Positions 5,920-40,269 of a stretch of DNA of 64,000 nt are shown here, piece by piece (position 1 is the stretch's first letter; every line of letters begins with the position of its first letter). The notes beneath the pieces were generated by a model. It made no database searches, was not told where the DNA came from, and was given only the letters and a program-made list of their open reading frames with translations. Source of the stretch: Rhodospirillaceae bacterium (lineage in GTDB: Bacteria; Pseudomonadota; Alphaproteobacteria; GCA-2731375); the NCBI GenBank assembly GCA_018660265.1, contig JABJKS010000089.1, positions 1 to 64,000 of the forward strand, read 5' to 3'. A program made the position numbers and the translations under genes.

Positions 5920-6765
5920 CTAAAAGACGGAGAAACCCTTTGCATACTCCAAATACAGCTCTTTGGCCCGGCGGCCCATGGGGCCGGGTTGAAGCTCCCG
6001 GTCCTCAAATTGGGTGACGGCTTTAACTTTGGCGTTGTTGCCGGTCGAGAAGATTTCGTCCGCTGCCATGACATCATCCACGGTCAAAGTACCCTCAATC
6101 ACCTCGACGCCATCTTCGCGCAGCAACTTAATCGTGCGTTGGCGGGTCACACCGTTCAGGAAGGTGCCATTGATCGCAGGGGTAATGACCACGCCATCCT
6201 TGGCCATGAACAGGTTGGAGGAAAGGAACTCCGCCACGTTGCCGTTGGGATCAAGAATGATCGCGTTGTCAAAGCCGCGCTTGGTCGCATCCGTCAAGGC
6301 GAGCGCGGTGTTGGGATAGAGGCAGGACGCCTTGGCCGTCGTGGGTGCCATGTCACGGGCCGGGCGACGACGGGATGACAGACAGACTTTGAATGGTCCG
6401 TCGGGCGGAATGGGGCTGTTATAGATCGCAATGACAAAGGCCGTGCTGTCCGCTTCAGGGATCAAAAAGCCTTCCCGGGCATAGAACATGGGCCGGATAT
6501 AAAGCTCCATATCCCGGGGCAGTTTACGCACGCCAATTCTGCAAAGTTCGGCAATTTCCGAAGGTTCCAACATCGGCGCCAACAACATATTTTTGGCCGA
6601 AACGACCAGGCGGGCACAATGTTCCTCCAGGTCCGGCACCAGACCGCGCAACGAACGGGCCCCGTCGAAAACCACGGACGACATCCAAAAGGCATGGTTC
6701 ATGGGCCCGATCAGCATAGGCTGCTGTTCCTGCCATTCACCGTCGTGATAAAATACTGCCTCCAT
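5920..6765 (-). CDS. Branched-chain amino acid aminotransferase-like enzyme (class IV PLP)
   Basis: 281 residues starting at MEAVFYHDGEW; the longer open frame runs into the upstream gene and is not used. Fold-type IV PLP enzyme: the early MNHAFWMSSVVFDGARS, the middle segment KASCLYPNTALALTDATKRG with the probable PLP lysine, then NVAEFLSSNLF and FLNGVTRQR typical of the IlvE/D-amino acid aminotransferase/ADC lyase group. It would exchange amino groups between an amino acid and 2-oxoglutarate. It begins only 5 bp after the molybdenum hydroxylase-like gene and ends the operon, so its substrate may be the pathway compound rather than Val/Leu/Ile. D-amino acid aminotransferase is an alternative. 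Confidence 0.8.
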   Translation of the reverse strand: MEAVFYHDGEWQEQQPMLIGPMNHAFWMSSVVFDGARSLRGLVPDLEEHCARLVVSAKNMLLAPMLEPSEIAELCRIGVRKLPRDMELYIRPMFYAREGFLIPEADSTAFVIAIYNSPIPPDGPFKVCLSSRRRPARDMAPTTAKASCLYPNTALALTDATKRGFDNAIILDPNGNVAEFLSSNLFMAKDGVVITPAINGTFLNGVTRQRTIKLLREDGVEVIEGTLTVDDVMAADEIFSTGNNAKVKAVTQFEDRELQPGPMGRRAKELYLEYAKGFSVF

Positions 6766-11510: not shown

Positions 11511-12860
11511 ATGGCGTTGAGTGAGACCATAAAGACGGCGCCCGCATCGACGGGACGGCTGGATCATATACCCGGTCATATGGGCCTGCCCATATTCGGC
11601 AATACCTTTGAATTCCTGAAAGATCCGTTCGCCTTCCATCACCGGCGGCGGCAGGAGCATGGATCGGTCTATAAGTTTGGCGTCTTTGGTGGCCAGACCG
11701 TTGCCTTATATGGCGCGGATGCCCTGGAATATGTCCTGATGGACCGGGACAAGATTTTTGGCTCGCGCAATGGCTGGCGTTTGTTGGAGAAATTGTTCCC
11801 CAATGGCCTGATGTTGCGGGATTTCGAAGACCATCGCAGCCATCGCCGGATCATGCAGGCCGCGTTTAAGCCGAAACCCATGCAGGATTATATGCTGCGC
11901 CTGAACGAGGGCATCGCCCACAGCATGCAGGCGTGGTCGCCGGCAACCCGGTTTGAATTCTATCCTGCAATCAAGGACCTGACCTTGGAACTCGGTGCCT
12001 CGGTCTTTCTCGGCCTGGAAATGGGTGATGAAGCAGCCAAATTGAACCAGGCCTTCATCGACGAAGTCGCCGCCTCTGTCGCCGTGATCCGGCGGCCTTG
12101 GCCGGGCACGGCCATGGGCCGGGGGGTGAAGGCCCGGGCCTTCCTGTTGGCCTATTTTCGCGATCTGATCCCGGAACGTCGCGCCGGTGACGGCGATGAT
12201 ATGTTCAGCCAGTTCTGCAAAGCCAAATCGGAGGACGGGGCGTTTTTCAGTGACGATGAAATCGTCGACCACCTAAATTTTCTGCTGATGGCAGCGCATG
12301 ACACCACCACCTCCGCTCTGACGACAATGGTCTGGGCCCTGGCCGCCTATCCCGATTGGCAAAATGCCGTGCGCGAAGAGGTTTTGTCCTTGGGATCAGA
12401 ACAGCTGGACTATGGCGATCTGGATAAACTGGTCCTGACAGAGCGTGTCTTCAAGGAAGCCTTGCGCTTTCGCCCGCCGGTGCCGTTTCTGCCGCGCTTT
12501 GCGAACGAGGCGTTTGAATTTGGCGGTTACGAAATCCCTGCCGATACCTCCGTCTCGGTCTCTCCCGGCATGGTTCATATGGCGGAGGAGATCTGGACCC
12601 AACCGACCCTGTTCGACCCGGATCGTTTCTCCGACAACCGGGCCGAAGACCGCCGCCACCGCTTTGCCTGGACACCGTTCGGCGGCGGGGCGCACAAATG
12701 CATCGGCATGCATTTCGCCATCATGCAGGTGCGCGCCTTTGTGCATCAGTTCCTCCAGCACTATCGGGTCGCATTGCCCGATGGCTACCAACCCCGCTGG
12801 CTATCCATCCCGATCCCGAAACCACGAGACGGCCTGCCGATCATCCTGTCTCGCCTATGA
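11511..12860 (+). CDS. Cytochrome P450
   Basis: 449 residues, full length for a soluble P450. The I-helix oxygen-activation segment is LLMAAHDTTTSAL, the K-helix ExxR is EALR, and the haem loop is FGGGAHKCIG with the thiolate Cys397. There is no membrane anchor or fused reductase, so it must use separate ferredoxin and reductase partners, none of which is nearby. The start ATG follows GGGAGA at a good distance. It diverges from an SDR gene and is followed by a Cache protein and two flavin monooxygenases. The closest family feel is CYP51/CYP120-like bacterial P450s, but the substrate is open. Confidence 0.92.
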   Translation: MALSETIKTAPASTGRLDHIPGHMGLPIFGNTFEFLKDPFAFHHRRRQEHGSVYKFGVFGGQTVALYGADALEYVLMDRDKIFGSRNGWRLLEKLFPNGLMLRDFEDHRSHRRIMQAAFKPKPMQDYMLRLNEGIAHSMQAWSPATRFEFYPAIKDLTLELGASVFLGLEMGDEAAKLNQAFIDEVAASVAVIRRPWPGTAMGRGVKARAFLLAYFRDLIPERRAGDGDDMFSQFCKAKSEDGAFFSDDEIVDHLNFLLMAAHDTTTSALTTMVWALAAYPDWQNAVREEVLSLGSEQLDYGDLDKLVLTERVFKEALRFRPPVPFLPRFANEAFEFGGYEIPADTSVSVSPGMVHMAEEIWTQPTLFDPDRFSDNRAEDRRHRFAWTPFGGGAHKCIGMHFAIMQVRAFVHQFLQHYRVALPDGYQPRWLSIPIPKPRDGLPIILSRL

Positions 12861-39035: not shown

Positions 39036-39141
39036 AAAAACCCCCTATATCAAAGACATCAGAACAACAGCAGAAAGTCGTTCCATGGCACAGCTTTTGC
39101 CATAGCGGCGCGGTTACGGCAAGTTGCCGCAGCCGCGCCAT

Positions 39142-40269
39142 TCAGGCACCGCTACCCTTTTCAGCAGCAGCGGCAAAGTCATCGATGCCAATGGCGCCAC
39201 GCCAGCTATCGGTTGCTGCTGCTTTCTCGTCCTCCAGGGGGATACCGGTCGAATCGGCGACCCGGTCGATGGCATTGAACAACGCTGCCACCCCCGCCGT
39301 ATCCGTCAACGCCGCGCCGCCCATTGTTTCGGCAATGGCCGTTCGCGCCGCCGACAATTCGCCTGGATCATCGCCCAACACCGCGTTGGCAAAGCGTGTC
39401 AACATGGCCCCGTTCGGCACACCACCGTCATTGCCGGCATCATCCCCCGTCATGATCGAAAGGTCATAATCACCAGCGTCATCTTTGTTGCTCGCACGGA
39501 GCAGCTGCCCATGGCTGGTGGTTCAGTAAACACACTGGTTAAGGGCCGAAATACGCCCCGCCACCAGCTCTATCTGCGCATGATTGATGGCGCGGTATTC
39601 ATTGTCGAAATCCCGCATCGCCTGGGGTGGCAGATATTGAGCAACCACCAGATCGAAAAAACCTTTGACCGAAGCCGGCACCAGGCTCATGGCCTGATAA
39701 ATATGCGCCGCTGTGGGCCGACCGGCATACAGATCTTCATCCACGGTACCGATGGCACCTGCTGGTGGCAGGGTATGGACCCAGGCCAGCTCCCGGCTGG
39801 CGGCAACGGGCCGCAGCCGCGTCGGCTCTCCCGGTTGGGGGGCAGGCAAGGGCCAGGGGTCCAGCCCCAGACCTTTGGTGAAGGTATCAATGGCGACCAT
39901 ATTGGCAATGACGCCCACGGTCTCCACATAGCGTTCCTCAACCATGCCCTGGTCAACCAGGCCTTGGAACCAGGATCGGCTCAACCGGCCCGGGTCGGTA
40001 CGGATACGATGAATTTGTTCCACCTCCAACGGGGACAATTGGCCCAAATGGTCGTGTTCACCCTGCACGGCTTCGGGGGATAGAGCCTCCTTGCGGGCGG
40101 CGCATAATTTGCAATCCTGGGCGTTTCGCGCCTCTGCCGCCACGGCGAGGCGTTCGGCCCCCGTCAACCAGGTGCCGGGCTGGCCCAACCTTTCCCATGT
40201 CCGCACCTGGGCTGCGGCGACATCGTCGCGCACCGGCCAGGGCAGATCTTGATAGCTGATTTCAGTCAT
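39142..40269 (-). CDS. AhpD-like alkylhydroperoxidase-related selenoprotein (TGA = Sec at residue 249)
   Basis: I read one 375-residue protein through an in-frame TGA (39523-39525). Before it is a 248-residue frame, after it a 126-codon frame with no other stop. The junction reads NQCVY-[TGA]-TTSHGQLLR. In AhpD the active centre is Glu, 12 residues, Cys, 3 residues, Cys, 4 residues, His; here Glu234, Cys246, TGA249 and His253 fit exactly, so TGA sits at the second redox cysteine (CxxU). A SECIS-like hairpin is 24 nt downstream. A separate CxxC (Cys53, Cys56) occurs in the N-terminal half, so two carboxymuconolactone-decarboxylase-type domains are likely. I recall a family named alkylhydroperoxidase-related (seleno)protein. 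No sel genes are visible here; nonsense mutation is the alternative. Confidence 0.85.
39489..39503 (-). promoter_or_regulatory. Candidate bacterial SECIS hairpin
   Basis: On the minus strand TGCTC and GAGCA (39503-39499 and 39493-39489) form a 5-bp stem closed by the loop CGTGC. Exactly 24 nt separate the TGA from the loop, and a G is in the second loop position. This agrees with what I recall of bacterial SECIS rules: loop 16-37 nt after the UGA and a G among the first two loop bases. Confidence 0.6.

Follow-up and report, generated by a model that had tools for sequence, protein, structure and literature searches.

The selenoprotein family to which the gene studied here belongs appeared in the Sargasso Sea selenoproteome of 2005 under the name 'hypothetical protein 1', characterised by a CXXU motif (PMC1088965), and is mapped to the NCBIfam model NF041238 in Table 1 of a 2026 review (PMC13188914). 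The same review gives the rules for bSECIS elements: a loop of 3-9 nt with G in the first two places and then U, an upper stem of 4-16 bp and a distance of 16-37 nt from the UGA (PMC13188914). Sestrin is built from a pseudo-symmetric pair of AhpD-like domains and has a single active Cys (Kim et al., PMC4674687). A 2024 review lists bacterial fused AhpD dimers, and the whole words selen and Sec are absent from its text (PMC11429811). In a non-exhaustive search of the literature we found no description of a sestrin-like tandem arrangement of NF041238.

We identified a gene of this family on the minus strand of a 64,000-nt stretch of Rhodospirillaceae DNA (the window; Table 1). The initial annotation had described two in-phase minus-strand frames split by one TGA and, across it, the motif NQCVY-U-TTSHGQLLR with E234, C246, U249 and H253 at spacings of +12, +3 and +4. 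Translation of 40269-39142 bears out both, giving a single frame of 248 codons, the TGA, 126 codons and a terminal TGA. The read-through protein scores 469.2 bits against NF041238, 'alkylhydroperoxidase-related (seleno)protein' (curated cut-off 175; profile positions 1-356 of 357), which is exactly the family label given in the annotation, and its two halves adjoin within this one model (positions 1-238 and 241-356). The gene resembles NF041238 (AhpD_rel_CFYUT) in its full-length match far above the cut-off, its CxxU motif and the UGA at the Sec position; the family motif C-x-Y-U-T, with its in-frame TGA, reads CVYUT here, whereas the family name carries CFYUT. The gene is thereby confirmed as a newly found member of an already published, NCBI-curated selenoprotein family. 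In the best explanation, which we hold with high confidence, Sec is inserted at UGA249 and completes an AhpD-type active site made up of E234, C246-V-Y-U249 and H253.

Table 1. Features of the selenoprotein gene, in window coordinates
Feature	Position	Strand	Basis or remark
Selenoprotein gene	39142..40269	-	375 residues with Sec249; NF041238 family (AhpD_rel_CFYUT); ATG start, final TGA stop
In-frame TGA, predicted Sec249, second position of CxxU motif	39523..39525	-	Translation; TGA in 57/57 homologues
Cys246, first residue of CxxU	39532..39534	-	Invariant, 57/57
Glu234, AhpD-type relay glutamate	39568..39570	-	Invariant, 57/57
His253, AhpD-type relay histidine	39511..39513	-	Invariant, 57/57
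bSECIS-like hairpin within coding sequence, U-GCUC-CGUGC-GAGC-A	39489..39503	-	Loop from 24 nt after UGA; rule from PMC13188914
N-terminal C53-K-L-C56 motif	40102..40113	-	Kept in 52/57; deleted in L090-L092 group
N-terminal half (1-160), probably diverged AhpD-like unit	39790..40269	-	Half-vs-half profile comparison; structure matches
C-terminal AhpD-like unit with CxxU active site (~residues 159-355, plus tail)	39145..39795	-	AhpD profile and structure matches

The genome encodes three NF041238 members (on contigs C109, C80 and C114), and in each of them the region matched by the model contains a single TGA, which falls at the Sec position. The two paralogues (L052:4172-5221, G000:C80; L053:3963-5045, G000:C114) and the gene in the window represent three separate subclades within the genus. 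A single alphaproteobacterial genome thereby contributes three UGA-containing genes to a selenoprotein family that has been little studied. A phylum-wide sample of 398 genomes contained no further members above the cut-off and two distant Cys-type relatives below it, and a search of plasmids yielded no relative. The 2005 survey lists Cys-containing homologues of 'hypothetical protein 1' (PMC1088965), whereas our class sample contained none.

An AlphaFold2 model, built with Cys in place of Sec, is confident, with a mean pLDDT of 93.3 and a pTM of 0.93. Its C-terminal part (approximately residues 159-355) matches AhpD-like structures with Z scores of 12-13 (fold Z 13.4), the profile match to 6k40 reaches 4.5e-15, and the AhpD structures 6k40 and 3c1l, both matched by this half, carry Cys at the Sec column. 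The PF02627 CMD domain is barely passed (23.1 bits versus a cut-off of 23.0), with the Glu-Cys-x-x-Cys(Sec)-His active site present; scores for the AhpD models TIGR00777 (14.7 versus 191.95) and TIGR00778 (25.7 versus 27.8) and for the peroxidase-related enzyme model TIGR01926 (37.6 bits versus 81.8) lie below their cut-offs. The C-terminal half is thus like AhpD and peroxidase-related enzymes (TIGR01926, TIGR00778, PF02627; 6k40, 3c1l, 2oyo, 2prr) in fold and in the spacing of Glu, CxxC(U) and His, whereas those enzymes have Cys instead of Sec and one unit of ~190 residues per chain.

Structure and profile comparisons make the N-terminal half a probable second AhpD unit that has diverged. When this half was predicted alone, only AhpD-fold entries exceeded Z 5 (best 7.6) and the next rows dropped to 3; a half-versus-half profile comparison aligned C53-x-x-C56 with C246-x-x-U249, with a single-comparison P of 0.0022 and a probability of only 13%. 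The N-terminal CxxC is not essential to NF041238, because 52 of the 57 homologues keep it and one clade deleted it. In that clade (L090-L092) the CxxC region is missing and the CxxU site is kept, and L090 carries two family members in tandem.

The best whole-chain structural match of the AlphaFold2 model is human Sestrin2 (5dj4; Z 16.6 over 238 residues, rmsd 3.3); as helical proteins can reach Z ~13 without kinship, we take this match to indicate shared architecture and not as proof of descent. Like sestrin, to which its identity is ~10%, the protein is predicted to fuse two AhpD-like units in one chain. They differ in the placement of the active site: the only active Cys of sestrin, Cys125, lies in the N-terminal unit, and the C-terminal unit, in which an electronegative hinge with a DDYDY motif replaces the active site (PMC11429811), has none (PMC4674687), whereas here the Sec lies in a C-terminal unit that retains CxxU. 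The comparison gives NF041238 a structural frame of two AhpD-like units in a sestrin-like arrangement.

By analogy with AhpD, we infer that the enzyme is a thiol peroxidase or a disulfide relay. The selenolate of Sec249, which occupies the place of the second redox Cys in AhpD, would attack the substrate, a hydroperoxide or some other oxidised compound, and become a selenenic acid. Resolution by C246 would give a selenenylsulfide for reduction by a thiol donor, and the Glu234/His253 pair would relay protons as in AhpD. A serious competitor, to which we give a little less than an even chance, is that the selenoprotein carries out disulfide exchange, as an AhpD electron adaptor or in a thioredoxin-like manner, or another CMD-family reaction, and does not reduce peroxides directly. 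The C-x-x-U motif and the AhpD fold suit both roles, the structure 1knc is titled as AhpD with thioredoxin-like activity, and the debrominase Bmp8 is among the AhpD-fold relatives; the conservation of the Glu/His relay residues as in AhpD peroxidases argues against this alternative. Motif and fold point to a redox function, for which hydroperoxide and protein disulfide substrates are not separable by sequence. We found no conserved redox partner gene downstream of the 57 homologues, and none beside the gene outside the genus.

As in sestrin, the chain is predicted to contain two AhpD-like folding units. The N-terminal CxxC could pass electrons on, although it is dispensable, one clade being without it. 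We speculate, while considering it rather improbable, that NF041238 enzymes combine two AhpD units in a sestrin-like tandem and that, within one chain, the selenenylsulfide formed at CxxU in the C-terminal unit is reduced by the N-terminal unit with its CxxC. If this were true, the members of the family would be selenoperoxidases with a self-contained relay and would parallel, in bacteria, the two-domain sestrins.

The reading of UGA249 as Sec has to be weighed against a true stop, that is, a pseudogene or two separate genes with no Sec made. Stop is the default meaning of TGA in the genetic code, and the upstream part alone, with 248 residues, is a good match to NF041238. A TGA split by itself is weak evidence, as the window holds two other same-frame TGA-split open stretches of like size (TGA at 6376 and 12858) that have no such meaning; one is the end of a P450 gene (TGA at 12858) followed by a signal-peptide-like protein, and the other shows no sign of a gene. 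What counts is homology, here the adjoining match of both halves to one NF041238 model. Among 57 distinct homologues drawn from the genus, family and class of the window, the Sec column holds TGA in all 57, down to ~30% identity; none has TAA, TAG, Cys or any other sense codon in it, while TGA, TAG and TAA all serve as terminal stops among these genes. The Sec codon is therefore fixed throughout our whole NF041238 sample of the class. The initial annotation had proposed looking for Cys or U in this column, and Cys does occupy it in AhpD and peroxidase-related relatives, solved and unsolved. E234, C246, H253 and the adjacent Thr250 are invariant in the 57 homologues.

Judged from substitution patterns, the sequence downstream of the TGA is under purifying selection and evolves as protein. 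Compared with ten close orthologues, dN/dS is 0.12-0.26 after the TGA, with most changes at third codon positions, and 0.07-0.16 before it. A fixed TGA followed by a stretch under purifying selection is not what a pseudogene or a true stop predicts. A stop would also leave the active site without its second redox residue and His253, and it fits poorly with the perfect co-occurrence of the family with SelA (27/27, see below). We thus regard termination at this codon as extremely unlikely.

Downstream of the UGA, we identified a GCUC-CGUGC-GAGC hairpin with a 5-nt loop (CGUGC) and, in the window sequence, a 5-bp stem. The loop begins 24 nt past the UGA and has G at its second position, followed by U, so that the hairpin agrees with the bSECIS rules for loop, stem and spacing (PMC13188914). 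The three most synonymously constrained of 88 testable codons, L257 (CTC in 56/56), S260 (AGC/AGT) and R258 (CGT/CGG), all lie within the hairpin. The complete set of four core pairs is present in 52 of 57 sequences, as compared with ~12% of synonymous recodings, and 94% of cells are paired versus 32-60% when the pairing is slid. Covariation across the homologues is thin, the core pairs being nearly invariant, and the case for the hairpin therefore rests on synonymous constraint. Folding energy is weak by itself at -5.9 kcal/mol for nt 16-45 (bSECIS threshold -7.5); the 55-nt element reaches -17.5 (z -1.25), and energies are not unusual relative to synonymous recodings (mean z -0.53). An Rfam search of the window returned no match. 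Overall, the evidence that a bSECIS-like hairpin is conserved downstream of the UGA is good but indirect.

The genome also encodes the machinery for Sec insertion. The initial annotation had named selA, selB, selD and a Sec tRNA as the genes to look for, and all are present: SelA with SelB beside it, SelD, and one tRNA with anticodon TCA that ARAGORN called as tRNA-Sec. In a class sample of 385 genomes, NF041238 occurs in 27 and SelA in 56, and every one of the 27 also has SelA (hypergeometric p 3e-26 over the 385 class genomes, a figure that ignores kinship). In 7 of the 27 family-bearing genomes, no more than 4.6 kb separates a family member from selA. The proposal that UGA is read as Sec is thus supported by the TGA in 57/57 homologues, the selection downstream of it, the bSECIS-like hairpin and selA/selB/selD/tRNA-Sec(TCA). 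We suggest that SelB, Sec-tRNA(Sec) and the hairpin just 3' of the UGA would direct the ribosome to insert Sec at UGA249. Other genes are known to be read through without Sec, and an insertion of Trp, Cys or a suppressor residue at this UGA would be a case of it; we consider this highly implausible given that tRNA-Sec(TCA), SelA, SelB and SelD are all in the genome, that the UGA aligns with the redox Cys of Cys-type relatives, that a hairpin satisfying the bSECIS loop and spacing rules follows it, and that TGA also terminates ordinary genes of the window, the P450 at 12858 among them, so that UGA is not reassigned.

Gene callers would truncate or miss NF041238 genes of this kind. The initial annotation had expected an automatic caller to report two unrelated proteins; misannotation is to be expected, but it need not take that form, since an antisense open frame of 319 aa also spans the site. 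This frame (window 39124-40083, plus strand, TTG start) runs across the Sec codon and could lead gene callers astray.

Several further observations concern the genes around selD and the family members. The SelD of this genome at L048 (G000:C31:57158-58084) is itself a selenoprotein that carries the usual Sec (GGGUGCK), and a 787-codon open frame on C97 that looks like a fusion contains another SelD-like match. In other genomes of the class the family member adjoins selD-selA(-selB) or selA-selB (L100, L103, L104, L101), and at L100, L103 and L104, three of the 7 loci within 4.6 kb of selA, it is divergent from selD-selA, which selB follows wherever the contig extends far enough; the selD, selA and selB names at these three loci derive from the ORF sequences and from SelA positions in the class search. 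At L079, L080, L094 and L095 the family member is faced by an ORF with the stretch FAAGDCAA..GVYAVRQGPVLAENLRRAV, which we take to resemble the NADH dehydrogenase-like oxidoreductase that is fused to SelD in some bacteria. A short frame after the C114-type paralogue (L057 downstream of 1780, and L099) begins MARLLVIVHAPSPNTKR and is possibly a flavodoxin-like reductase partner.
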